Source of the DNA: Methylocystaceae bacterium
GTDB lineage: Bacteria > Pseudomonadota > Alphaproteobacteria > Rhodospirillales > Terasakiellaceae
DNA length: 44,816 nt
Reading direction: 5' to 3'
NCBI GenBank assembly: GCA_013373265.1
Contig: JABXIC010000028.1
Location: 1-44,816 of the forward strand
The notes under the pieces were generated by a model, which saw only the letters and a program-made list of their open reading frames with translations, was not told the origin of the DNA and did no database searches. Positions 27,476 to 40,980 of this stretch are shown piece after piece (the first letter of the stretch is position 1; each line of letters begins with the position of its first letter). Position numbers and translations under genes: made by a program.

Positions 27476-29674
27476 ATGGCGCATATTCGTAAAGTAAATG
27501 TATCGACAGGCATAGAATGGGTGGAAGTTCCGGAGGCGGGGGTCTTCATTCTATGTGGTTGTCCACCAGATAGCGTCAAGCATTTGATGAAAATCGGTCT
27601 GATTATTCCGACCGAGCGTGAAGGTTGGAAATTTGAAACGGGACCCAATGCAATTTTATTGTCCGATGTGATTTTGCAAAATGGTAGTTTTACCAATATG
27701 GCAGAATTCCCGGTGCTGCAAATGCTCTATCGCCAAGGGACTTTAATTCCAAACCACCCCAACAACACGGGTGCCAAACCGATTTTGATCGGTGCGCAAG
27801 ACCAGATTAATGCGCAGATGGAATATATTCATCGCGGTAATTATGGTCTGGTGAATGAAGAAGAATTAATTGCAGGCGGTGTCTCTCCTGAAGAAGCCAA
27901 AGTGATGATGCGTATGAAGTTACGCTTTGCTTTTGGTGCCATTCATCATCCCAGCGCCTTGTTAGATAGTCGTGTGGTGAAGGATGAAGCTGTCGAGATT
28001 AAAAACGGTGTCTTTGTAAAACGTCTTGCGCTTAATCAGTTTGAAGTTTCTTATAAAGGCGAAAGCATCGATGTGGATTTACGCCTTGAACCTTTGGAAC
28101 ATTACGTTCCGTCCTATCCGTTGGGCTATCATCAGGTAAACAGAGACAGTTTCTCAATCATCCATTCCGGTGATGGTGATGGGTGGGACGTTAATCGGCC
28201 GACCATGTCCAGTGTCATTTTTTACCAAGGCAAAATCTTTCTTGTGGATGCTGGACCAAATGTGCGCGTGACACTGCAATCTCTGGGCATAGGTATCAGT
28301 GAAGTGGATGGTATTTTCCACACTCACTCCCATGATGACCATTTTGCCGGCTTGCCGGCTTTTATCCGTTCGGATCGTAAAATCAATTATTATGCTGCAC
28401 CTTATGTGCGTGCGTCTGTTGCGAAAAAATTGTCGGCCTTATTGTCCATTGATGAAAAGCGCTTTGAAGACTTTTTCAATATCAATGATCTAAAAGTTGA
28501 TGAATGGAACGATGTTGCAGGCCTTGAAGTGCGCCCGCGTTTGTCGCCTCATCCGGTGGAAACCGCGATCTTGCAGTTTAGAGCCCTGGGCCCTGATGGA
28601 TATAAAACCTACGGGCATTATGCTGATATTGTCTCGTTGAGTGTCCTGAAAGGGATGATCAATGAAGACGAAAGTGCCCCGGGTGTGTCTCAAGCCTTTT
28701 TTGATCGTACGCGCGAACAATATCTTGAAACGATGGATGTGAAGAAAATCGACGTGGGCGGTGGTTTGATCCATGGGGATTCAGCTGACTTTAAATCTGA
28801 TAAATCCGGCAAAATCATTTTGTCCCATACGGCCTTGGCCTTGCGTGCAGACCAGCGTGAAATCGGTTCTGGCGCACCGTTTGGAACCAGCGATATTTTG
28901 ATCCCGTCCTATCAGGACAATGCCCGTAGGTATGCGTTTGAATATCTGCGCGAATATTTCCCGACAGTGCCGACACATGCGCTGCGCACGTTAATGAATA
29001 CATCTATGGTGACGTTTAACCCGGAAACCATCTTGTTGAAAGAGGGGGAACCGGTTGAACATATTTATTTGCTGTTGACCGGATCGGTTGAAATGATCAA
29101 AACCTCCAGCAATCTGCATGCGCTGGTTTCAGCCGGTTCTTTGGTGGGGGAAATTACCGCCTTACATAATTTGCCCGCTATGGAAACCTATCGCGCGCTG
29201 ACCTTTATTAAAGCGCTGCGTATTCCGACCAAGCTTTATCACAATATCGTTGAAAAATATAAGCTCTTTGGCGATATCTTGCGCCTGATGGAAGGGCGGG
29301 AGTTTTTACAATCAACCTGGTTGTTTGGCGAGTCATTGTCTTATACCACGCAAAACAGAATTGCAGACGAGATGGTGTGTCATCATATCAAGAAGGGTGA
29401 GAGCCACAGTTTGCAAGAATATGATGGCATTGCCATTGTCAAAGAAGGGACGGCAAAACTCTATCGTGATGATGTGTTGTTGGAAGAAGTGTCACGCGGT
29501 GATTTCTTTGGTGAAGACGCCATCATATTGGATCGTCCCAGCCATTACCGTGTTGAAGCGGAAAGTGCTTTCGAATTTTGCACTGTGGGTGGGGATATCC
29601 TGCGTGATATTCCAATCGTGCAATGGAAATTGATCGAAAGTATGGAACGCCGACGACACCTTTTGGTCAAATGA
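27476..29674 (+). CDS. MBL-fold protein fused to two cyclic-nucleotide-binding-like domains
   Basis: A 732-aa multidomain protein. Residues ~1-200 are a domain I do not recognise, beginning with a small beta-rich part (GIEWVEVPEAGVFILCGCPP). Residues ~210-480 form a metallo-beta-lactamase domain with metal motif HTHSHDDH (H284, H286, D288, H289) and later H433 and H451 as candidate ligands. Residues ~500-605 and ~610-725 are two cNMP-binding-like folds (ILLKEGEPVEHIYLLLTG and SRGDFFGEDAIIL). The PRAA-type phosphate-cassette arginine is not obvious in either, so nucleotide binding is uncertain. It has no membrane helix. It is divergent from the hybrid kinase and convergent on phnF. Possibly an intracellular signal-controlled oxygen-, nitric-oxide- or nucleotide-related hydrolase. 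Confidence 0.8.
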   Translation: MAHIRKVNVSTGIEWVEVPEAGVFILCGCPPDSVKHLMKIGLIIPTEREGWKFETGPNAILLSDVILQNGSFTNMAEFPVLQMLYRQGTLIPNHPNNTGAKPILIGAQDQINAQMEYIHRGNYGLVNEEELIAGGVSPEEAKVMMRMKLRFAFGAIHHPSALLDSRVVKDEAVEIKNGVFVKRLALNQFEVSYKGESIDVDLRLEPLEHYVPSYPLGYHQVNRDSFSIIHSGDGDGWDVNRPTMSSVIFYQGKIFLVDAGPNVRVTLQSLGIGISEVDGIFHTHSHDDHFAGLPAFIRSDRKINYYAAPYVRASVAKKLSALLSIDEKRFEDFFNINDLKVDEWNDVAGLEVRPRLSPHPVETAILQFRALGPDGYKTYGHYADIVSLSVLKGMINEDESAPGVSQAFFDRTREQYLETMDVKKIDVGGGLIHGDSADFKSDKSGKIILSHTALALRADQREIGSGAPFGTSDILIPSYQDNARRYAFEYLREYFPTVPTHALRTLMNTSMVTFNPETILLKEGEPVEHIYLLLTGSVEMIKTSSNLHALVSAGSLVGEITALHNLPAMETYRALTFIKALRIPTKLYHNIVEKYKLFGDILRLMEGREFLQSTWLFGESLSYTTQNRIADEMVCHHIKKGESHSLQEYDGIAIVKEGTAKLYRDDVLLEEVSRGDFFGEDAIILDRPSHYRVEAESAFEFCTVGGDILRDIPIVQWKLIESMERRRHLLVK

Positions 29675-30394
29675 TTAATTGCCTTGTACAAGAAGCTGAA
29701 CCCGGTCACTTGAAAAACTTGTGATACCAAACTCGATTGGTTTACCCACCACATCGACATCAATGCTTTCCGTTTGCAAGATGGGCTTGTTTTTGGCTTG
29801 CTTGAGTAGATTTGCGACTTTGGCAGAAGGAATTTGGGCGATGATGCGCGTTTGCTTGCGGGTATAATCGTAAATACCGTAGCTTTTAAGACTTTCCGTC
29901 AAAGATTTTGTTTCAATAAAGATTTGATCTATGCCTTTGAAACGGTTTTGCGGCAAGTAGCTGATGGAATGGGCAAGTGGGATATCATCTGCCACACTAA
30001 TAGACTCTAGATAAATCAATGCGCTGCCGATCGGTACGTCAAGATGTTTGGCGATGGCTTTGGAGGCGTCAATAACTTCTGATTTGATCAGTTGCTTATC
30101 CGGCAGGCGATGACGCCCGGTGACAATTTGCGAAAACCGGGTGCGGCTGCCCAAGGGATAATCCAGCAGAGCTTCTTGCACAAAGGTCCCCCGGCCTTGT
30201 TCCACACGGGTGACATTGGCTTCTGTCAGGGCGGCAATGGCGCTTCTGACGGTGTGACGATTAACTTCAAAACGTTTGGCAAGTTCATTTTCTGTGGGCA
30301 GTTTTTCCCCCGGTTTAAATATGCCTTGGGCGATATCACGTAATAATTGCCGTTCAATCTGCTTCCAGATGGCTTCACCCTTTTGCCATTTCAT
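29675..30394 (-). CDS. phnF: GntR/HutC-family phosphonate regulator PhnF
   Basis: A 239-aa regulator with an N-terminal winged helix-turn-helix (about 10-72: ELAKRFEVNRHTVRSAIAAL and GRGTFV) and a C-terminal UTRA effector domain (about 90-235). The position next to phnG identifies it as PhnF, which represses C-P lyase genes in other bacteria. The ATG has AGGAG upstream. It is divergent from phnG, and both operon promoters carry a TCTAGACA motif that is the likely binding site. The stop is directly next to the MBL-cNMP stop (convergent). Confidence 0.93.
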   Translation of the reverse strand: MKWQKGEAIWKQIERQLLRDIAQGIFKPGEKLPTENELAKRFEVNRHTVRSAIAALTEANVTRVEQGRGTFVQEALLDYPLGSRTRFSQIVTGRHRLPDKQLIKSEVIDASKAIAKHLDVPIGSALIYLESISVADDIPLAHSISYLPQNRFKGIDQIFIETKSLTESLKSYGIYDYTRKQTRIIAQIPSAKVANLLKQAKNKPILQTESIDVDVVGKPIEFGITSFSSDRVQLLVQGN

Positions 30395-30527: not shown

Positions 30528-31010
30528 GTGACCGACACTTTAGAAAAAAATACCGATGGCACAGTTGATGTCGCGACACGTCAACATTGGATATCCGTTT
30601 TATCGCGGTCTTCATCCAATGAATTATGTGCTTATTGGGAAGACCTTTCACCGGGTCTGACTTACAGCATGTTGCGCCAACCCGAAACAGGACTGGTGAT
30701 GGTGCGCGCACGAGCGGGCGGAAAAGGACAACGTTTCAATCTTGGTGAAGCGTCTGTGACACGTTGTTCTGTCAGCATGGAAACCGGAGAGGTCGGTCAC
30801 GGCTATGTCACAGGTCGCAACAAACGCCATGCGGAAATGGCGGCTGCCTTTGATGCTTTATTGCAAAATGAAAATTGGACAGCGCGTCTGTTAGAAAATG
30901 TGATCGCACCGATTGATGAGCGTCTTCAAAAAAGCAAGAACGAGCGCCAAGCTAAAGTCGCCTCTACAAAGGTTGATTTCTTCACCATGGTCAGAGGAGA
31001 AGACGAATGA
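30528..31010 (+). CDS. phnG: C-P lyase subunit PhnG
   Basis: A 160-aa subunit of the PhnGHIJ carbon-phosphorus lyase core complex. It matches the PhnG family in its RQHWISVLSRSSSNEL start and GVG-like TGRNKRHAEMAAAFDAL segment. The start is GTG, seven bases after AAAGGAG. The next gene overlaps by 4 bp. With PhnH, PhnI and PhnL it catalyses the transfer of the phosphonate to ribose by displacing adenine from ATP; PhnG itself is a structural partner in the complex. Confidence 0.95.
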   Translation: MTDTLEKNTDGTVDVATRQHWISVLSRSSSNELCAYWEDLSPGLTYSMLRQPETGLVMVRARAGGKGQRFNLGEASVTRCSVSMETGEVGHGYVTGRNKRHAEMAAAFDALLQNENWTARLLENVIAPIDERLQKSKNERQAKVASTKVDFFTMVRGEDE

Positions 31011-31630
31011 GCACTCAACAAAATCAAGTTGCCGGTTTTTCAATTCCCGGATTTAGTAATCCGATTTTTGATTCAACGGACGTTTTCAGAAAGGTGTTGT
31101 CGGCCATGTCCCGCCCCGGTGAAATTCAAACTATCAAAGCGCCTTCTGCCCATCCTGAAAGTTTAAATCCAACCAGTTCGGCAATCTTATTGGCTTTGGC
31201 TGATATGGAAACCGAAGTTTGGCTTGCCCCTGAAATGGATAGTATTGAGGCACGCAATTACCTGAAATTTCATACAGGGTGCAAAGTGGTTGAAGATCCG
31301 AAAGACAGCAAGTTTGCGGTGGTCAATACCGATACAGGGATTGATGTTTATAACAAGCTGAAGGTTGGCAGTGCGGAATATCCAGATCGTTCTGCAACAG
31401 TGATTATGATGGTTGATGATATCAGCAATGATCACGATATAACTTTGAAAGGGCCGGGGATAAAAGTTAGTAACACCTTAAAAGTAGAACATGTCGCCCA
31501 AGAGTTTTGGTATTGGTTTGAAGAAAATACCCGATTATTTCCTTGTGGTGTGGATGTGATCTTTGCCAGTGCAGAACAAATCGCCGCCGTACCCCGTACC
31601 ATTAAAGTGGAGCACGCCTCATGTATGTAG
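31007..31630 (+). CDS. phnH: C-P lyase subunit PhnH
   Basis: A 207-aa PhnH, a PLP-transferase-fold protein without PLP that is part of the C-P lyase core. The start (GFSNPIFDSTDVFRKVLSAMSRPG) and the LFPCGVDVIFAS segment are typical. It overlaps phnG by 4 bp and phnI by 10 bp, which indicates translational coupling across the operon. Confidence 0.95.
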   Translation: MSTQQNQVAGFSIPGFSNPIFDSTDVFRKVLSAMSRPGEIQTIKAPSAHPESLNPTSSAILLALADMETEVWLAPEMDSIEARNYLKFHTGCKVVEDPKDSKFAVVNTDTGIDVYNKLKVGSAEYPDRSATVIMMVDDISNDHDITLKGPGIKVSNTLKVEHVAQEFWYWFEENTRLFPCGVDVIFASAEQIAAVPRTIKVEHASCM

Positions 31631-32730
31631 CCGTAAAAGGTGGGGAAAAAGCCATTGCCAATGCCCACAAACTTTTGGCGGAAGATCGCCGTGGTTGCCC
31701 CGATGTGGATGAACTACAGACGCGCCAAATTTCAGAACAGCTTGGTCTGGGTGTCAGCCGTATTATGGCGGAAGGCTCCCTTTATGATAAAGACCTTTGC
31801 GCCCTTGCCATGAAACAAGCGCGTGGGGATATGATTGAAGCGATCTTTTTGATCCGTGCCTATCGCACCACATTGCCGCGTTTTTCTTATAGTGTGCCCG
31901 TGGATACCAGCAAGATGGATATTGACCGTCGTATCTCGGCCACCTTTAAGGATTTACCCGGCGGGCAGATTTTGGGGCCGACCTTTGATTATACCCATCG
32001 CCTGATTGATTTTACATTGGAAGCCGATGAACAAGTGCCCAAGGCCAATACGTCCGAGGCTGGCTTGGATGACGACATGCCACGCGTCTTGGATAATCTG
32101 CTCAAAGGTGAAGGCCTGATTCAGAGCGAAGCGGTTGTGGAAGATGAAGATAGTCAAGCCGTTGGCGATCTGACCCGTGAACCGTTGGAATTTCCAGCCA
32201 ATCGGGATGTCCGTTTGCAAAATCTGGCGCGCGGGGATGAAGGTTTTGTCTTAGCATTGGGCTATTCGACGCAGCGCGGGTATGCCAGAAGCCATGCCTT
32301 TGTTGGTGAAATCCGTTTTGGGAAAGCCTCTTTGGTGATTGAGCCGGAAGAACTGGGCTTTGCCATTGATATCGGTGATATCGAATTGACCGAATGTGAA
32401 ACCGTCAACCAGTTTCAAGGATCCAAAACAGAACCGCCACAATTTACCCGTGGGTACGGTCTGGCCTTTGGTCAAAATGAACGCAAAGCCATTTCTATGG
32501 CATTGGTGGATCGGGCCTTGCGTGCGCGTGAATTGGGTGAAGATATTGTTGCTGCCGTACAGGATGAAGAATTTGTCCTGTCCCATAGCGACAATATCCA
32601 GTCCACCGGATTTGTCGAACATATCAAGCTGCCACACTATGTGGATTTCCAATCTGAACTGGAATTGGTGCGCCGGATGCGCCGTGACCTTGAAGAGAAA
32701 AACATTTCTGAAAAACAGGCGGCGGAGTAA
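31621..32730 (+). CDS. phnI: C-P lyase subunit PhnI
   Basis: A 369-aa PhnI, the nucleosidase-like subunit that releases adenine from ATP as phosphonate is coupled to C1' of ribose. The start MYVAVKGGEKAIANAH is diagnostic. Close to the middle, YSTQRGYARSHAFVGEIRFG is also a PhnI signature. It begins within the last 10 bp of phnH and is followed by phnJ after 5 bp. Its length is normal for the family. Confidence 0.97.
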   Translation: MYVAVKGGEKAIANAHKLLAEDRRGCPDVDELQTRQISEQLGLGVSRIMAEGSLYDKDLCALAMKQARGDMIEAIFLIRAYRTTLPRFSYSVPVDTSKMDIDRRISATFKDLPGGQILGPTFDYTHRLIDFTLEADEQVPKANTSEAGLDDDMPRVLDNLLKGEGLIQSEAVVEDEDSQAVGDLTREPLEFPANRDVRLQNLARGDEGFVLALGYSTQRGYARSHAFVGEIRFGKASLVIEPEELGFAIDIGDIELTECETVNQFQGSKTEPPQFTRGYGLAFGQNERKAISMALVDRALRARELGEDIVAAVQDEEFVLSHSDNIQSTGFVEHIKLPHYVDFQSELELVRRMRRDLEEKNISEKQAAE

Positions 32731-32735
32731 CAGTC

Positions 32736-33623
32736 ATGACACAAATACAAAGCGAATATAACTTTGCCTATTTAGATGAACAGACCAAACGCATGATTCG
32801 CCGCGCGATCTTAAAAGCCGTGGCAATTCCGGGGTATCAAGTCCCTTTTGCGGGTCGTGAAATGCCCATGCCGTATGGTTGGGGCACGGGTGGTGTGCAG
32901 GTTACCGCCGCTGTCTTGGCCCCTCAGGATATCTTAAAGGTGATTGACCAAGGCAGTGATGACACCACTAATGCCGTGAGCATCCGTCAATTTTTTGCCA
33001 AGACCGCCAATGTGGTCACGACAGAAAAAACGACTGAGGCGACGATTATTCAGACCCGCCACCGCATACCGGAAACACCGTTGAATGAAGATCAAATTCT
33101 TGTCTATCAAGTGCCGATCCCTGAACCTTTGCGTTTTTTGGAACCGCGTGAAGTTGAAACGCGTAAAATGCATGCCTTGGAAGAATATGGCCTGATGCAT
33201 GTGAAATTATATGAAGATATTTCGCGCCACGGTCATATTGCTACCACTTATGCCTATCCGGCAAAAGTGGACGGGCGTTATGTGATGGATCCTTCACCGA
33301 TCCCGAAATTTGATAATCCTAAAATGAACATGTGTCCGGCCCTTCAGTTGTTTGGCGCGGGACGGGAAAAACGGATTTACGCCATTCCACCTTATACGCA
33401 AGTAACCAGCCTTGATTTTGAAGATTATCCGTTTGAAATCCAGAAGTGGGAAGAAAACTGCGCTCTTTGCGGGGCTGAAGATACGTTCCTTGATGAAGTG
33501 ATTTTGGATGATCAGGGCAATCGTATGTTTGTTTGTTCTGATTCAGATTACTGCAATGACAGGCAAGCCCAAGGTCATCGCGGTGAAGCCAACCGTGAAG
33601 ATGAGATGGAGGCCGCCCAATGA
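32736..33623 (+). CDS. phnJ: C-P lyase catalytic subunit PhnJ (radical SAM)
   Basis: A 295-aa radical-SAM enzyme that breaks the carbon-phosphorus bond of 5-phosphoribosyl-1-phosphonate to give the 1,2-cyclic phosphate and a hydrocarbon. The unusual cluster cysteines C242, C245, C267 and C273 (CALC, then VCSDSDYC) match the PhnJ pattern, and G33 in AIPGYQVPF corresponds to the glycyl radical site described for E. coli PhnJ (Gly32). Overlaps phnK by 4 bp. All residues needed for activity appear intact. Confidence 0.97.
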   Translation: MTQIQSEYNFAYLDEQTKRMIRRAILKAVAIPGYQVPFAGREMPMPYGWGTGGVQVTAAVLAPQDILKVIDQGSDDTTNAVSIRQFFAKTANVVTTEKTTEATIIQTRHRIPETPLNEDQILVYQVPIPEPLRFLEPREVETRKMHALEEYGLMHVKLYEDISRHGHIATTYAYPAKVDGRYVMDPSPIPKFDNPKMNMCPALQLFGAGREKRIYAIPPYTQVTSLDFEDYPFEIQKWEENCALCGAEDTFLDEVILDDQGNRMFVCSDSDYCNDRQAQGHRGEANREDEMEAAQ

Positions 33624-34405
33624 TCGGTTCACATGATGTTTTGTTAAATGTTGAAAATCTAACCATGATGTATGGTGCGCGCGTGGGCTGTGAAGAGGTC
33701 TCTTTTGATCTTTGGCCCGGGGAAGTGCTGGGCATTGTGGGGGAGTCCGGTTCCGGAAAATCAACTTTGTTGCGTTGTATCTCCGGTCAAGTGGCACCAA
33801 CGCACGGGGCGATCAATTATAAGACCCGTGCTAATGGGGTGCGTGACCTCTTTACGGGGATGAGCGAACCGGAGCGACGTTTTTTGATGCGTACCGATTG
33901 GGCCTTTGTCCATCAAAACCCGCGTGATGGGCTGCGCATGAGTGTCAGTGCCGGTGCCAATATTGGTGAAAGGCTGATGGCTGTCGGTCAACGTCATTAC
34001 GGTAATATCCGCGCAACCGCACAAGACTGGTTGGGCAAGGTGGAAATTGCTGATGAACGCCTAGATGATCTGCCGTCCACTTTTTCCGGTGGGATGCAAC
34101 AGCGTTTGCAAATTGCCCGCAATCTGGTGACCAGCCCCCGTCTTGTGTTTATGGACGAACCCACAGGTGGATTGGATGTGTCGGTACAAGCCAAGTTGCT
34201 GGATCTCCTGCGCGGTCTTGTGCAGGACTTGGGCCTATCGGTTGTGATCGTGACCCATGATCTGGCGGTGGCGCGTTTGTTGTCCCATCGTTTGATGGTG
34301 ATGCAGCAGGGCCGTGTGGTCGAAAGTGGTTTGACCGATCAGGTGCTTGATGATCCGCAGCATCCATATACCCAGCTTCTCGTTTCTTCAATTTTGCAAG
34401 CGTAA
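33620..34405 (+). CDS. phnK: ATP-binding protein PhnK
   Basis: A 261-aa ABC-type ATPase with Walker A GESGSGKST (41-49), signature FSGGMQQ (155-161) and DEP at about 179-181. It resembles oligopeptide-transport ATPases but has no partner permease; in E. coli PhnK binds the C-P lyase core as a dimer and its ATPase activity is needed for function. Starts within the last four bases of phnJ. Confidence 0.94.
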   Translation: MIGSHDVLLNVENLTMMYGARVGCEEVSFDLWPGEVLGIVGESGSGKSTLLRCISGQVAPTHGAINYKTRANGVRDLFTGMSEPERRFLMRTDWAFVHQNPRDGLRMSVSAGANIGERLMAVGQRHYGNIRATAQDWLGKVEIADERLDDLPSTFSGGMQQRLQIARNLVTSPRLVFMDEPTGGLDVSVQAKLLDLLRGLVQDLGLSVVIVTHDLAVARLLSHRLMVMQQGRVVESGLTDQVLDDPQHPYTQLLVSSILQA

Positions 34406-34415
34406 GGACTTTAAA

Positions 34416-35108
34416 ATGTCAGAAATGCTTAACGTGGAAAATGTCGCCAAAAGCTTTACATTGCACACACAAGGCGCCCTTACTATTCCCGTCTTTGAAA
34501 AGATCAACTTTTCGCTTCAAGCGGGGGAATGTATCGCTTTAACGGGGGCCTCCGGTGCAGGGAAAAGTACGTTTATGCGCATGATCTACGCCAATTATAT
34601 TTGTAATGAAGGCCGGATTAACATCCGTCATAATGACGGCTGGCTGGATATGGTGGGAGCAACCCCGCATGAAGTCTTGGATGTGCGTCGCCATACCTTG
34701 GGCTATGTCAGTCAGTTTTTGCGCGTCATCCCGCGTGTGGCGACATTGGATATTGTCGCTGAACCCTTGATCGCAACCGGGGTGGCAAAAGAAACGGCGA
34801 TTGAAAAAGCCAAGACATTGCTGACGCGCTTGCGCATCCCGCACCATTTGTGGTCGTTGTCGCCTTTAACCTTTTCTGGTGGTGAACAACAGCGTGTCAA
34901 TATTGCACGCGGGTTTGCGGTGGAATATCCAATCATGTTGTTGGATGAACCGACCGCCTCACTGGATGCAGATAACCGCCGCACGGTTTTGGATTTTATT
35001 GAAGAAGCCAAGGCAATGGGCAGTGCCGTTTTAGGCATTTTTCACGATCAGGAAGCACGTGATGCCGTGTGCACGGGCACATTTGATGTGACACAATATC
35101 AGGTATAA
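34416..35108 (+). CDS. phnL: ATP-binding protein PhnL
   Basis: A 230-aa ABC-type ATPase with Walker A GASGAGKST (44-52), signature FSGGEQQ and LDEPTASLD. I use the ATG at 34416, preceded by AAGGA, rather than a longer frame beginning at 34347, which would run inside phnK. In E. coli PhnL stacks on PhnK in the C-P lyase complex and is required for phosphonate breakdown. No membrane partner is encoded, in line with a non-transport role. Confidence 0.95.
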   Translation: MSEMLNVENVAKSFTLHTQGALTIPVFEKINFSLQAGECIALTGASGAGKSTFMRMIYANYICNEGRINIRHNDGWLDMVGATPHEVLDVRRHTLGYVSQFLRVIPRVATLDIVAEPLIATGVAKETAIEKAKTLLTRLRIPHHLWSLSPLTFSGGEQQRVNIARGFAVEYPIMLLDEPTASLDADNRRTVLDFIEEAKAMGSAVLGIFHDQEARDAVCTGTFDVTQYQV

Positions 35109-35109
35109 A

Positions 35110-36255
35110 ATGATGAACGAACAAATTTTCACCAACGCAAAAATCGTGATGGCCAATGAAGTGGTTGAAGGCACACTGACCCTGCGCGATGATAAAATCT
35201 ATGATATTTCGCATGGCAATTCCGACTTGCCTGTTGCGATCAATATGGGCGGTGACCTGTTGCTGCCGGGACTTGTTGAGTTACATACAGACAATCTTGA
35301 AAAACATATGACGCCACGGCCGAAAACAGAATGGCCGTCTTTGGCAGCGATCATTGCCCATGATAATCAGATTGCCAGCGCGGGCATTACGACTGTGTTT
35401 GATGCTATTTCTATCGGTGATGTGAAAGATGGCAGTGCGCGTATCAGACGGTTGCAAGAAATGGTTGATGGTTTGGCCCATACCAAAAAAGAAAACCTGT
35501 TACGTTCAGACCACTTGATCCATTTGCGCTGTGAAGTGAGCTACCCGGCGATGGCAACGACATTAGATCAGTTGTCAAATAATGAATTGGTGCGCATGTT
35601 TTCGGTCATGGATCATACGCCCGGTCAACGCCAGTTTGTGAGCCTTGAAGCCTATTATATTTATTATCAAGGCAAGTACGGTTTGACTGACGATGAGATG
35701 GAAGGTTTCATCACACAACGTCGTAATGACCAAGAGCAGTTTAGCGCCAAAAACCGTAAGCATGTGGTTGAAACAGCACATCGAAAACACATGGCGTTGG
35801 CCAGTCATGATGATGCGACTAAGGCCCATGTGGATGAGGCCGTGCAGGATAAAATGACTGTTGCTGAGTTCCCGACCACAGTGGAAGCGGCCAAAGAATC
35901 CCATGAAAGCGGTTTGGCGGTAATGATGGGCGGGCCAAATATGGTACGTGGTGGATCACATTCCGGCAATGTATCTGCGGGCGATCTGGCCAATCAAGGG
36001 TATCTGGATATCATTTCCAGTGATTATGTCCCGCATAGTCTGTTGCATGCCGCAATGAAATTGTATGAAGAATTTGACGGTTATGATTTGCCGAAAGCCA
36101 TTCGGTGCGTGACCAAAACACCAGCCGATAGTGTTGGTTTAACCGATCGGGGTGAAATCTCTATCGGTAAACGTGCCGATCTTATTCATGTCCATCATTC
36201 GCGCCACCATCCGGTTATCCGTGGGGTCTGGCGTGAAGGGAACAGGGTGTCATAA
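35110..36255 (+). CDS. phnM: Ribophosphonate triphosphate diphosphatase PhnM
   Basis: A 381-aa amidohydrolase-fold enzyme that removes diphosphate from 5-triphosphoribosyl-1-phosphonate to give the substrate for PhnJ. Metal-binding HTDNLEKH (H59, D61, H66) follows the LLPGLVELHTD segment, and later DYVPHSLLHAA and GKRADLIHV are also family signatures. It begins 1 bp after the phnL stop and is followed by phnN after 5 bp. Confidence 0.96.
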   Translation: MMNEQIFTNAKIVMANEVVEGTLTLRDDKIYDISHGNSDLPVAINMGGDLLLPGLVELHTDNLEKHMTPRPKTEWPSLAAIIAHDNQIASAGITTVFDAISIGDVKDGSARIRRLQEMVDGLAHTKKENLLRSDHLIHLRCEVSYPAMATTLDQLSNNELVRMFSVMDHTPGQRQFVSLEAYYIYYQGKYGLTDDEMEGFITQRRNDQEQFSAKNRKHVVETAHRKHMALASHDDATKAHVDEAVQDKMTVAEFPTTVEAAKESHESGLAVMMGGPNMVRGGSHSGNVSAGDLANQGYLDIISSDYVPHSLLHAAMKLYEEFDGYDLPKAIRCVTKTPADSVGLTDRGEISIGKRADLIHVHHSRHHPVIRGVWREGNRVS

Positions 36256-36260
36256 AAGCG

Positions 36261-36827
36261 ATGAGTGGATATTTGTATCTTGTGGTTGGCCCTAGTGGGG
36301 CGGGTAAAGACAGTCTTTTAGATGCGGCACGGGCGCATTTTAAAGCGGACCGTCATTTACAATTTCCACGGCGCTATATCACGCGGCCAATAGATGCAGG
36401 TGGTGAAGACCATATCGCCGTGAGTGAGGATGAGTTTGAGCAGCTCAAGCGGGATGGGGCATTCGCTTTTTATTGGGGCGCACATGATTTGAAATATGGC
36501 ATCCCCAGTGAAATAGATGGCTATCTGGAGCTTGGCTGCAACGTGATTGTTAATGTATCGCGCGGCGTCATTGAATTTGTCAGAGAGCGTTATGACAAGG
36601 TCAAGATCATATCTGTTATAGTCGATATGGACGTGTTGGAAAAACGCCTGCGTGCGCGTGGTCGTGAAAGTGACGTTGAAATCCAGCGTCGATTGGATCG
36701 GGCCAAGGCCTTTCGGGTACATGGGTCTGATGTGATTGAGATCAACAACAGCAAGTCATTATCCGATGCGATTAATATATTTAATGCTGTTGTCGCCCGA
36801 CCTGCCGCGCAGGAAAAATCGGCTTAG
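36261..36827 (+). CDS. phnN: Ribose 1,5-bisphosphate phosphokinase PhnN
   Basis: A 188-aa P-loop kinase resembling guanylate kinase, with Walker A GPSGAGKDS (10-18). PhnN phosphorylates ribose 1,5-bisphosphate to PRPP, feeding C-P lyase products into nucleotide synthesis. It is the last gene of the phnG-N operon and its stop lies 7 bp from the stop of the convergent DUF1045 gene. Confidence 0.95.
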   Translation: MSGYLYLVVGPSGAGKDSLLDAARAHFKADRHLQFPRRYITRPIDAGGEDHIAVSEDEFEQLKRDGAFAFYWGAHDLKYGIPSEIDGYLELGCNVIVNVSRGVIEFVRERYDKVKIISVIVDMDVLEKRLRARGRESDVEIQRRLDRAKAFRVHGSDVIEINNSKSLSDAINIFNAVVARPAAQEKSA

Positions 36828-36834
36828 ATCGTTC

Positions 36835-37536
36835 TTATCCCGCCTGTAAGGGAAAGCGTTTGATTAAGTGAAAAGGCCGATTGTGGCCGGGATCACCGAA
36901 TAAACAGAGATCATTGATTTCAAATGGCGATAACAGAAGATGTTCGCTTGCCGTTTCTAGGCATTGATGGACGTGATTAAGACGTTCGCCTGACAGTTTA
37001 TTGCTGAGTGTCAGGTGAAAGCGAAATTCATCCATGACATAAGGGTAGCCCCATTTGAGAAGTAAGGCTTCTTGACGTTCGCTCAATCCGGATTGACGTC
37101 TGCGGGCCAGTTCGTCGTCGCTGGGTGCACTTCGAAAGCTATCCAATTTCCAAACGCATTGATCGGCAAGGGCTGAGATTGCCATCTTGCTGTCGCGCGG
37201 TGTAAAGGCGAGAAAACCACCAATCACCTGCAAGGATAACGGGGCACCGCGTACAGGCTTTAAAGTGTCACAAAGGTCTTCGATGGCGAGGGTCAGCCCT
37301 TCAAAGGTTTTGTTCTTTGCAAGTCTGAACGGAGGTTTGAGTGTACCATGGAAACCGTATCGAGTGGGGGACGTCGTAACCTGTTCAATGTCGTCACTAC
37401 TGAGCCCGATGACTTTGGGTCTGGGCGTGCTGCGTTTTGTTTCAGGGTTCCAGCCTAACCAGGCATTCCCAAATCGACCGAGCAGACTATCGCTTTTCGG
37501 TGCATAATATATGGCGTATCGTTCGTATCTTATCAT
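36835..37536 (-). CDS. DUF1045 2H-type phosphoesterase of the phosphonate operon
   Basis: A 233-aa protein of the DUF1045 family, common in alphaproteobacterial phn operons. Two HxT motifs, HGT at H63 and HLT at H174, identify it as a 2H phosphoesterase, the fold that cleaves cyclic 2',3'- or 1'',2''-phosphates. No phnP gene is in this locus, so this protein is the natural candidate to open the 5-phosphoribosyl 1,2-cyclic phosphate made by PhnJ. That is inference supported by fold and context. It is the last gene of the phnCDE operon and follows the acetyltransferase by 6 bp. Confidence 0.85.
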   Translation of the reverse strand: MIRYERYAIYYAPKSDSLLGRFGNAWLGWNPETKRSTPRPKVIGLSSDDIEQVTTSPTRYGFHGTLKPPFRLAKNKTFEGLTLAIEDLCDTLKPVRGAPLSLQVIGGFLAFTPRDSKMAISALADQCVWKLDSFRSAPSDDELARRRQSGLSERQEALLLKWGYPYVMDEFRFHLTLSNKLSGERLNHVHQCLETASEHLLLSPFEINDLCLFGDPGHNRPFHLIKRFPLQAG

Positions 37537-37542
37537 TTTGCC

Positions 37543-38175
37543 CTAGTTGGCAGGATCGTATTTCTTACAAAAGGCTGTGGCATCAAGGCTGCGAAAGTCA
37601 TTGAGTCTTTTAGACAGTTGGTCATGGGTCCAATCCCACCACGAAATGCGCATCAGGGCATCTTGAATGTCTTGTTCAAAACGGCGTCGCAAGGGCTTGG
37701 ACGGCACACCTGTAACGATCATATAGGGTGGAATATCTTTTGTCACCACGGCATTTGATCCAATCACCGCACCTGTGCCGATGGTGACGCCACCTTGAAC
37801 AATCGCGCCATGACCAATCCAGACGTCATGACCTATTGTTAAATGCCTTTCGCGGCGCCAATCAAAGAAAGCAGGGTCGTCTTCCCCCAACTCATAGGCG
37901 GCACTGCGATATTGGAAATGGTGCATGCTGGGGCGATCCATGGGATGTTGCCCGGGGTTCAGGCGGGTATGGGCTGCGATATTAACGAATTTACCCATGG
38001 TTGTGTAGATGATCTCACTATCATTGACCACATAGGAATAGTCGCCCATGGTTGTTTCAATGACTTTGGTGCGTTCACCGATTTCAGTCCATTTGCCCAG
38101 CGTACAATCCTTGACCAAGGCTGTGTCATCAATGGTCGAGGCTTCGCTGAGGTGCTTCATGACGGCTTTTTTCAT
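37543..38175 (-). CDS. Hexapeptide-repeat transferase of the phosphonate operon
   Basis: A 210-aa left-handed beta-helix acyltransferase. Hexapeptide repeats run through most of the chain (TALVKDCTLGKWTEIGERTK and, later, GHGAIVQGGVTIGTGAVIGS), with the active-site loop around HPMDRPSMHHF. It belongs to the phosphonate-metabolism transferase group of the LacA/CatB superfamily often found beside phnE and DUF1045 in alphaproteobacteria. It may acetylate aminoalkylphosphonates, a role PhnO fills in enterobacteria; not proven. It overlaps the phnE stop by one base (TGATG). Confidence 0.88.
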   Translation of the reverse strand: MKKAVMKHLSEASTIDDTALVKDCTLGKWTEIGERTKVIETTMGDYSYVVNDSEIIYTTMGKFVNIAAHTRLNPGQHPMDRPSMHHFQYRSAAYELGEDDPAFFDWRRERHLTIGHDVWIGHGAIVQGGVTIGTGAVIGSNAVVTKDIPPYMIVTGVPSKPLRRRFEQDIQDALMRISWWDWTHDQLSKRLNDFRSLDATAFCKKYDPAN

Positions 38176-38981
38176 CAGGTGACCATCTTACGTAGACGTT
38201 GTGACAACAGGTCCAACAAGCTGACAGAGATAATAATCAAGATCATGACGGCTGCGGTCTCTGCATAATAAAAACCGCGAACATTTTCCCATAATACCAT
38301 ACCGATCCCACCGGCACCAACAATCCCCAGTACGGTGGCGGAACGCACGTTGGATTCAAACCGATAAAGGGAATAGGAAATCCATAACGGCAAAACTTGC
38401 GGGATAACGCCATAGATGACTTCTTGTAAGGCTGTGGCCCCGGTTGCACGGATGCCTTCCACCGGGCGAGGGTCGATCGATTCAACCGCTTCAGAAAAGA
38501 GTTTTGCCAAGATACCGGTGGTGTGGACCCATAAGGCAAGGACACCGGCAAAGGGTCCAAGGCCAACAGCAACCACAAACAGCATGGCAAAAACCATTTC
38601 GTTGATTGCACGAAACGCATCCATCAAACGGCGAACGGGTTGAAAGACCCACCATGGAACCAGATTTTCAGAAGATAAAATACCAAAGGGAACGGCAAAA
38701 ACAATTGAAAGCGCGGTCCCCCAAATGGCAATTTGAATGGTGATCCATATTTCGTTGACATACATGCGCCATTGCGACATGTCCGGTGGGAAAAAGCCGG
38801 AGACAAATTGGCTCATATTTTCAGCATTTTCGATGAGGGAGAGTGGGCGCATATCAGCACCTTCCCAAGACAGAGCCAACAGCGCAAAGGTGATTCCCCA
38901 CATGGCGAGATTGGCAAAGGAACGTTTTGTATTTGGAACTACAATGTCCCGTGTCGATTGGCTGTAGGCTTGCGTTGACAT
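38175..38981 (-). CDS. phnE: Phosphonate ABC transporter permease PhnE
   Basis: A 268-aa permease with about six membrane spans and the coupling motif [15 protein letters not shown] in the EAA loop. It forms the channel for phosphonate import with PhnC and PhnD. Only one PhnE is encoded; some bacteria have two. It has no good Shine-Dalgarno sequence and lies 91 bp after phnD, with a strong hairpin in between that may lower its expression relative to PhnD. Confidence 0.94.
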
Positions 38982-39072: not shown

Positions 39073-40089
39073 TTATTGTGCAGCAACCATGATTGCCAGA
39101 TCAGACAGTTGCTTGTCGATCTCAGAGATTTTGGTGGCTTTTTCTTGGGCATCCAAACCAGAGTTACCTTCGATTTTCAACTTGTTTTTAAACAGGGCAA
39201 GCTGGCGAACCGGATAAAGTTGTGTGTTGTTGCTTTCCATGAAAGGACCTTGACCATCAGAAATATGGCTCAAAACGTCTTTGGCATGGGCAACGTCACC
39301 CAGACGACCATAACCGAGGAAGAAAGCTTTGATTTTAGATTTCAGTTCTTTCGACATGTCTTTGCGATAAACCATCGGGTCAGACGGGATCAGCGGTGAT
39401 GTCCAAATGATTTTGATTTTTGCAGCAGCTTCCGGTGCTTTCAATTTAGAGCGACCGATTTGTTCAGAGTTGTTGGCAGCCACATCGACTTGGTTATGGG
39501 CAACAGACATCAGGTTTGTTTCATGGTTGGCGTTACGCACTGTTTTGAAACATTTTTTCGGGTCGATGTTGTTTTGTGCAAACACATAGTAAGAGGGCAC
39601 AAGGAAACCGGATGTGGAGTTCGGGTCACCGATACCGAAGTTCAAGGATTTGTCGCATTTGAAGATATCTTCAAGCTTGTTGATGTTTTTGTTAGCAACA
39701 TTGGTGATGATGTGTGAGTAGTAGCCTTGTGTGCCGTCTGCTTTAGACGTTTGGGCGAAAACTTCACCACCGGCGCGGTCAACGGCTTCCATACCGGATT
39801 TGTTGCCAAACCAACCAACATGAACTTTACCAAAGCGCATGGCTTCAATGATGCCTGCATAATCAGGGGCGAAGAAAGGGTTCACTTTCATGCCCAATGC
39901 GGCTTCCATGTCTTTGATCAACGGCATCCATTGTTCTTTCAGGTTGGACGTTGATTCAGTAGAAATGAAACCGAAATTGATTTCTTTCGGGTCTTGTTCC
40001 AAAGGCTTGTAAGACATTTCTGCTTGTGCCGTGCCAGCAACAAAGGCAGTCACTGCGATTGCGGCAGATGCAAGAAGTTTACGGACCAT
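39073..40089 (-). CDS. phnD: Phosphonate ABC transporter substrate-binding protein PhnD
   Basis: A 338-aa periplasmic protein. The signal peptide spans about residues 1-23 with a cleavage site after GTAQA. The mature chain begins with EMSYKPLEQDPKEINFG and contains FISTESTSNL and GWFGNKSGMEAVDRAGG, typical of PhnD. It captures phosphonates in the periplasm for PhnCE. ACAGGAG precedes the ATG; it follows phnC by 54 bp. Confidence 0.96.
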   Translation of the reverse strand: MVRKLLASAAIAVTAFVAGTAQAEMSYKPLEQDPKEINFGFISTESTSNLKEQWMPLIKDMEAALGMKVNPFFAPDYAGIIEAMRFGKVHVGWFGNKSGMEAVDRAGGEVFAQTSKADGTQGYYSHIITNVANKNINKLEDIFKCDKSLNFGIGDPNSTSGFLVPSYYVFAQNNIDPKKCFKTVRNANHETNLMSVAHNQVDVAANNSEQIGRSKLKAPEAAAKIKIIWTSPLIPSDPMVYRKDMSKELKSKIKAFFLGYGRLGDVAHAKDVLSHISDGQGPFMESNNTQLYPVRQLALFKNKLKIEGNSGLDAQEKATKISEIDKQLSDLAIMVAAQ

Positions 40090-40143: not shown

Positions 40144-40980
40144 TTAAACCGAAGCCAAGGCAGCGGCATCTTTCTGCGTGTAGTTTCCTGCAGGTTTTTC
40201 CTGCTTATTGTTGCCATACAGCTCCAAACTATGATCACCGTAGAGCTGCTTGAGGAAATCCGGTGTTAAGCTCTCTGAATTTCCGTCAAAAACAATTTCA
40301 CCATCGCGCATGGCGATGGTGCGGGGGCAATATTGCATGGCGTAATCAACTTGATGAAGGGACACCAAAACGGTGACTTTATCTTCCAGGTTAACACGCT
40401 CTAATGTATCCATGACTTTGCGCGATGAGGACGGATCAAGCGAAGCGATGGGTTCATCGGCTAAAATGACCTTGGCCCCTTGGGTGATGGTGCGTGCAAT
40501 CGCGGCGCGTTGTTGCTGCCCACCCGATAGGGTCGAAGAACGTTGCAAGGCCAGTTTATCAATACCAACACGGTGCAGGGCATCCATGGCTCGCTTCTTT
40601 TCCGCATGGGTGAACAGCCCCAAGGTGCCGCGCCAGGATGGGATTTGCCCAAGATAGCCCATTAGTACATTAGTCAGTACTGATAATCTGTTTACAAGAT
40701 TGAATTGTTGAAAAACCACACCCACTTCAGAGCGGATTTTGCGAACATTGCTGCCAAGCTTGCCATTTTTTTGCATCACTTGACCAAGGACTTTGATTTC
40801 GCTGTCGTTTTTGTCGCTGTGTATAAGGCCGCCAATATGTCGAATAAGCGTTGATTTACCTGACCCGGATGCACCGATGAGGGCGACCATTTCACCGGGC
40901 TCAATAGACAATTGGATGTTCGTTAGGGCCTTCTTTTCGTTAAATGTTTTATTGAGACCGTGAACTTGAATTGCGGACAT
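40144..40980 (-). CDS. phnC: Phosphonate ABC transporter ATP-binding protein PhnC
   Basis: A 278-aa ABC ATPase with Walker [10 protein letters not shown] (36-44), signature LSGGQQQ (151-157) and DEP at 175-177. It energises phosphonate import. First gene of the minus-strand operon phnC-phnD-phnE-transferase-DUF1045. The promoter in the gap upstream carries a TCTAGACA motif shared with the phnG promoter. Confidence 0.96.

Follow-up and report, generated by a model that had tools for sequence, protein, structure and literature searches.

Which enzyme opens the ring of 5-phosphoribosyl 1,2-cyclic phosphate in a bacterium whose C-P lyase gene cluster lacks phnP? The question is raised by the window studied here, the whole stretch of 44,816 nucleotides from a Methylocystaceae bacterium, and it concerns the step that decides on the entry of phosphonate phosphorus into central metabolism.

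Gene content of the phn locus

The C-P lyase locus of the window is complete for phnF and for phnG to phnN. Arranged on the plus strand are phnG (30528..31010; PF06754, 187.2 bits), phnH (31007..31630; PF05845, 202.2 bits), phnI (31621..32730; PF05861, 535.1 bits), phnJ, for the C-P lyase enzyme by which the cyclic phosphate is formed (32736..33623; PF06007, 501.4 bits), phnK (33620..34405; ABC_tran, 108.2 bits), phnL (34416..35108; ABC_tran, 97.2 bits), phnM (35110..36255; TIGR02318, 497.4 bits) and phnN, the gene for the ribose 1,5-bisphosphokinase proposed to consume the product (36261..36827; TIGR02322, 209.4 bits, cut-off 156). The genes phnK and phnL are named by their ABC domains and their position, and a later ATG was taken as the start of phnL, whose listed ORF begins at 34347. 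The regulatory gene phnF (29675..30394; TIGR02325, 244.5 bits) lies on the minus strand. The same strand carries a tightly spaced run consisting of phnC (40144..40980; TIGR02315, 301.2 bits), phnD (39073..40089; PF12974, 227.6 bits), phnE (38175..38981; TIGR01097, 299 bits), a gene for the hexapeptide-repeat transferase of phn operons (37543..38175; TIGR03308, 292.1 bits) and, six bases further on and closing the run, a DUF1045 gene (36835..37536). This last gene and phnN are convergent, with their ends only 7 bases apart. The original prediction had assigned the DUF1045 gene to the transport operon, where we indeed find it as the last member, and it had noted the absence of phnP from the locus, which is borne out by the family-model matches across the locus.

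Family, motifs and predicted fold of the DUF1045 protein

The minus-strand ORF at 36835-37536 opens with ATG and encodes a protein of 233 amino acids. It scores 257.3 bits against the NCBIfam model TIGR03223 (“putative phosphonate metabolism protein”), above the curated cut-off of 248.95, and lies in the C-P lyase gene setting that likewise defines this family; it also matches PF06299 (DUF1045) in Pfam with an E-value of 7.9e-52, followed by sub-threshold Pfam matches to 2_5_RNA_ligase2 and LigT_PEase. The segments YGFHGTLKPPF (H63, T65) and FRFHLTLS (H174, T176) provide the two H-x-T/S motifs of the 2H superfamily in the form of H63-G-T65 and H174-L-T176. A DUF1045 protein with two HxT motifs had been predicted at exactly these coordinates. 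In an alignment of 55 homologues, T176 is at least 90% conserved, and R6, Y60, H63, T65, P69, F108, R135, R146, L151, G163, Y164, P165, and H174 are invariant. The protein matched no lactamase model in Pfam (E ≤ 0.1) or NCBIfam (E ≤ 0.001), and neither a TIGR03307 score at the level of PhnP nor a metallo-beta-lactamase domain was found in it. The gene in the window thus belongs, as a typical representative, to a family already described. It shares operon setting and proposed role with the TIGR03223/DUF1045 family and shows no difference of note, although it ends the transport run instead of following phnM.

An AlphaFold2 model built from the 55 homologues (pLDDT 96.3, pTM 0.91) predicts a 2H fold, and the top Foldseek and VIA matches of this model are 2H proteins. 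The best VIA match is YjcG, a putative 2'-5' RNA ligase (Z 16.0; structure comparison, 1.5e-6), and LigT follows with a Z-score of 13.7. Sequence searches for solved relatives yielded three weak matches (E 0.08-0.57), two of which are 2H proteins. LigT from E. coli and YjcG from B. subtilis have the 2H fold in common with the DUF1045 model; neither of them is known as a phn-operon protein. A functional parallel is offered by the Arabidopsis Appr>p cyclic nucleotide phosphodiesterase (1fsi, 1jh6), a 2H enzyme acting on a ribose 1,2-cyclic phosphate as is proposed here; the VIA comparison of our model with 1jh6 gave a Z-score of 13.8 and an rmsd of 3.6 over 171 aligned residues. However, the two proteins are only 15% identical in the VIA alignment, and the Arabidopsis substrate carries ADP at C5 rather than a phosphate. 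The predicted fold and the motifs fit a cyclic phosphodiesterase, but function cannot be read from a shared fold; RNA ends and nucleotides are the substrates of other members of the 2H superfamily.

Proposed reaction and its precedents

We consider it very probable that the DUF1045 protein is a metal-independent 2H phosphodiesterase which takes the place of PhnP in the C-P lyase pathway. Family membership, motifs, predicted fold, gene context, the absence of PhnP over cut-off, and the mutual exclusion of the two proteins described below all speak for this assignment. In the mechanism that we envisage, PhnJ would release 5-phosphoribosyl 1,2-cyclic phosphate, H63 and H174 would serve as acid and base on the ring, and the bond to O2 would be cut; the product would be ribose 1,5-bisphosphate, which PhnN would convert to PRPP. 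The invariant residues R6, R135, and R146 might hold the phosphates, although this is a guess. Substrate, regiochemistry, metal independence and catalytic roles are those that we infer for the protein from these data. Gene context, predicted fold and a published complementation experiment suggest that DUF1045 would hydrolyze the cyclic phosphate and yield ribose 1,5-bisphosphate. The proposed direction of ring opening has a possible precedent: according to PMC9503650, ADP-ribose cyclic phosphate has its 1'',2'' ring opened by 2H enzymes to a linear phosphate, and the KptA-2H route gives rise to ADP-ribose 1''-phosphate as a by-product. The same chemistry, when applied to the PhnJ product, would give ribose 1,5-bisphosphate. 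PhnP of E. coli (TIGR03307) catalyzes the reaction, and occupies the pathway step, that we propose for the DUF1045 protein; PhnP belongs to the metallo-beta-lactamase family, whereas the DUF1045 protein matches no lactamase model. PhnPP is a member of the PHP family. It represents another route after PhnJ, one that, according to a portion of PMC8774927, yields ribose 5-phosphate instead of ribose 1,5-bisphosphate.

The replacement of PhnP by this protein is not a new idea, as it has been in print since at least 2013; what we add is a test on a genome scale, a caveat concerning kinship, and the comparison of folds. The RcsF protein of some phn papers is presumably DUF1045. A section of a 2023 review, which cites a 2009 PhnP paper, reports on 54 operons surveyed in SEED, of which 27 had PhnP and 16 had rcsF and no PhnP; the rcsF suggestion is repeated in a passage of a 2017 isolate paper. 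Parts of the report by Martinez 2013 (PMC3840354) describe a Rhodobacteraceae fosmid that lacks phnP but carries a 2H gene, presumably of the DUF1045 family, and that allowed growth on methylphosphonate of E. coli without phnHIJKLMNOP, and call the role of the 2H protein as a PhnP analogue likely. In an excerpt of a 2021 paper on Aminobacter, DUF1045 is termed a putative phosphoribosyl cyclic phosphodiesterase with reference to a Hove-Jensen review, and a table on phosphorus stress in Phaeobacter (PMC10132767) includes a “putative C-P lyase DUF1045” alongside PhnI, J, L, and M. An enzyme assay of the DUF1045 protein as ring opener was not found in the literature searched.

Distribution of DUF1045 and PhnP among genomes with phnJ

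Our survey relied on a sample of 385 genomes from the class of the window's organism, 65 of which possess phnJ, and on a phylum sample of 398 genomes with 83 phnJ-positive members. Twenty-five of the latter lie outside the class and 58 inside it (10 of them already in the class sample), the remaining 48 being kept outside the joint count of 90 genomes. PhnP calls rest on the TIGR03307 cut-off, since our own phnP script profile picked up generic lactamases from L009-L018, and its labels were consequently not used. A DUF1045 match was present in 64 of the 65 phnJ-positive genomes of the class, the exception being G161, and 63 of these matches are of the phn type; PhnP over cut-off occurred in none of the 65. 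Because PhnP over cut-off is absent from the class sample, something else must feed PhnN, for which a match was recorded in 55 of these genomes (54 over cut-off). The 25 genomes from outside the class comprise 19 with PhnP only, four with DUF1045 only, none with both, and two with neither, and in all 19 of the first group phnP shares a contig with phnJ at a distance of 3.9-4.6 kb. Hence, among the 90 phnJ-positive Pseudomonadota, 67 have phn-type DUF1045 only, 19 PhnP only, and four neither (68, 19, and 3, respectively, at the plain Pfam cut-off). The expectation that phnP would be missing where DUF1045 resides in phn operons is thereby confirmed at the family cut-offs, with both proteins together in 0 of 90 genomes. 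Fisher tests on the unadjusted tables gave very small p values, in which kinship is ignored. DUF1045, not PhnP, is found in nearly all C-P lyase genomes sampled from the class, and surveys based on phnP can consequently miss such genomes or score unrelated lactamases in them.

The copy of DUF1045 in G259 (49.8 bits; 64 bits against TIGR03223, cut-off 248.95) and that of G030 (47.5 bits) were rejected as phn-type proteins and set aside as divergent. The G259 copy is unlinked to the phn genes, and the neighborhoods of both are alike and contain no phn genes apart from 2H and generic ABC ATPase matches. Counting against our assignment, 3 of 70 phnJ-negative genomes of the class keep DUF1045 (G015 among the first 15; G040 and G030, the latter with its divergent type, among the next 55); these 70 were drawn by handle number from 320, and some are incomplete.

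Gene neighborhoods were inspected in the best 80 of at least 592 GTDB relatives, and the counts are lower bounds since the script missed the DUF1045 label in 5 of the 80 loci (labeled in 75). Within this set, 58 loci carry three or more genes out of phnF, G, H, I, J, L, M, and N within about 9 kb; the direct neighbor of DUF1045 is phnN in at least 55, phnM in at least 46, and either of the two in at least 59. In G107, G148, G327, and G380, for which wide flanks were fetched, a copy of DUF1045 is remote from phnJ and adjoins a phnM. The 22 phn-poor loci among the best 80 belong to 13 genomes with phnJ elsewhere and to nine in which none was found, their completeness not being given. Judging by these nine named genomes as well as G040 and G015, DUF1045 may be retained in the absence of phnJ. 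We considered a separate pathway for the phnM-DUF1045 pairs of phnJ-less genomes and rejected it: in a fast tree, the PhnM proteins beside DUF1045 in G040, Halovulum marinum, and Tropicimonas fall into the main C-P lyase clade, which makes relics the likelier explanation. Such pairs, kept where no phnJ was found, are seen at L072:9232-11167, L224, and L240, the last of which also has phnN. As a further observation, extra PhnJ copies of about 379-397 bits occur beside the main one in G022, G443, G554, G691, G800, and G805; they may represent a divergent second type of C-P lyase.

Kinship of the C-P lyase genomes

A PhnJ tree of 88 genomes (the 90 less G616 and G717; G605 flagged for its long branch) places the 67 DUF1045 genomes on one side of a single branch (SH-aLRT 90), and the survey counts are therefore not independent. 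Since a single change suffices for the DUF1045 group, the 90-genome count cannot be treated as many independent tests; judged from this phylogeny, the mutual exclusion of DUF1045 and PhnP appears to be one old switch followed by steady retention, with few independent events. DUF1045 is retained in all 67 tips of its group, and it is this retention, not the exclusion counts, that carries weight. The four DUF1045 genomes from outside the class are nested within the same group, which suggests that the phn cluster moved together with its 2H gene.

Alternative ring openers and alternative reactions

Could a generic PhnP-like metallo-beta-lactamase encoded elsewhere open the ring, with DUF1045 serving another role in the pathway? 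Matches to TIGR03307 at E ≤ 1e-10 exist in 53 of the 65 phnJ-positive class genomes, and a passage of a paper on Marivita scores phnP by KEGG number as present in all seven genomes. However, the best of these matches reaches 94.3 bits, none exceeds the cut-off of 272.25, and none is closer than 30 kb to a phnJ of its contig; some 33 kb separate the nearest one from the second phnJ of G022. In the window's own genome, where a phnP gene would have spoken against the replacement, we found no PhnP over this cut-off; given a genome completeness of about 90%, the absence is not absolute. The best score there is 30.5 bits, and a further piece of the same 270-amino-acid frame scores 25.8 bits; this frame sits on another contig than the phn locus, and two generic lactamase models outscore TIGR03307 on a fragment of it. 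With phn-type DUF1045 kept in all but two of the phnJ-positive class genomes, we regard such a lactamase as quite unlikely to be the ring opener. A protein encoded next to phnF (27476-29674) unites a metallo-beta-lactamase domain with cyclic-nucleotide-binding domains. It belongs to the superfamily of PhnP and adjoins the locus, but our own script profile found it in 0 of the 80 named DUF1045 loci (best 80 of at least 592 relatives), which marks it as no conserved substitute; an earlier profile run with this protein matched three ORFs among the loci, the window's own included, and the phn locus of a relative from the same order (L075) is devoid of this type of protein. We have consequently discarded this neighbor as a PhnP substitute, and that it opens the ring in the window's genome is most improbable.

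A different type of alternative leaves the DUF1045 protein as a 2H enzyme and changes its reaction: it might open the ring the other way, toward ribose 2,5-bisphosphate, or act on a 5-triphosphate or side-product ring in a repair role. The absence of a PhnN match from 8 of the 63 class genomes with phn-type DUF1045 would accord with this, as would the frequent pairing of DUF1045 with phnM, at times with a second phnM family. Against it stand the 55 genomes of the same set in which PhnN was matched, and the position of phnN as the direct neighbor of DUF1045 in most of the 80 best named loci. We therefore hold such a reaction to be unlikely, and prefer hydrolysis to ribose 1,5-bisphosphate. The function of the DUF1045 protein as a replacement of PhnP, as put forward in the original prediction, is supported by genome survey, fold and motifs and stands as a predicted one.

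Genomes with neither protein

Four of the 90 genomes have neither phn-type DUF1045 nor PhnP over cut-off. In G723 (L067:5931-6937), phnP is missing between phnN and phnC, while G539 (L142) from the same genus has phnP in the same gene order; in G720 (L066:5716-6290), phnP is missing as well, and two reading frames share what is left of phnN between them. Both look like losses, from a decaying locus in the case of G720. The other two, G161 and G259, group as sisters in the PhnJ phylogeny, and neither has a PhnN match. At E ≤ 1e-10, TIGR03307 matches nothing in G259, and its match in G161 is a sub-threshold one (50.9 bits) on another contig.

A xylose-isomerase-like TIM-barrel protein, assigned to PF01261 in G161, is found in both genomes. 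Its gene directly follows phnM in G161; some 8 kb separate it from phnJ in G259, as well as in G767 and G772, the only other phnJ-positive members among 52 genomes of the family of G259; neither PhnP nor PhnN nor DUF1045 was found in the fetched loci of these latter two. The four genes (L065:13665-14567, L168:15188-16075, L169:15336-16223, and L171:6970-7857) are all near or beside phn genes. The protein is present in these four of four genomes, in 0 of 29 other phnJ-positive genomes, and in 1 of 25 phnJ-negative kin, namely G747, whose contig ends just past the gene that elsewhere separates the TIM-barrel gene from phnE. Class-wide, 5 of 385 genomes have matches, those above 200 bits being G161 and G259; the weaker ones of G040, G380, and G107 are not beside phn core genes in the fetched stretches. 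The best NCBIfam match of the G161 protein is the cobamide-remodeling phosphodiesterase CbiR (32.7 bits, below the cut-off of 105), and no NCBIfam model matched the copy of G767. In a comparison with E. coli endonuclease IV, 7 of the 9 metal ligands of that enzyme fall into invariant columns of the TIM-barrel proteins; the other two are unaligned, with a His and a Glu seen at comparable places by eye only. Tentatively, at least one further unrelated enzyme, this endonuclease-IV/CbiR-like candidate, may have been recruited to open the ring or process its product in small-genome alphaproteobacteria of the families f34 and f144, in which the absence of PhnP, phn-type DUF1045, and PhnN is genome-wide for G161 and G259 and refers to the locus for two more. 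If true, the ring-opening step would be unusually swappable. In the literature searched, no paper combining phosphonate, endonuclease IV, and C-P lyase was found. G161 also has a calcineurin-like phosphoesterase gene directly before phnG and one for a PHP-type protein further up the same-strand run, and either of these proteins could perform the step instead.

The arrangement upstream of phnG in G161 (L065:38-8014) comprises, on the same strand, genes for a CehA/McbA-like PHP protein, a peptide-type ABC transporter, an EamA-like protein (transporter and EamA-like genes named by eye) and the calcineurin-like phosphoesterase, followed by phnG to phnM. In G107, a distant TIM-barrel relative (L258:8371-10079) has as its neighbors, each assigned by eye, a peptide-type ABC transporter and what is likely a glycerophosphodiester phosphodiesterase.
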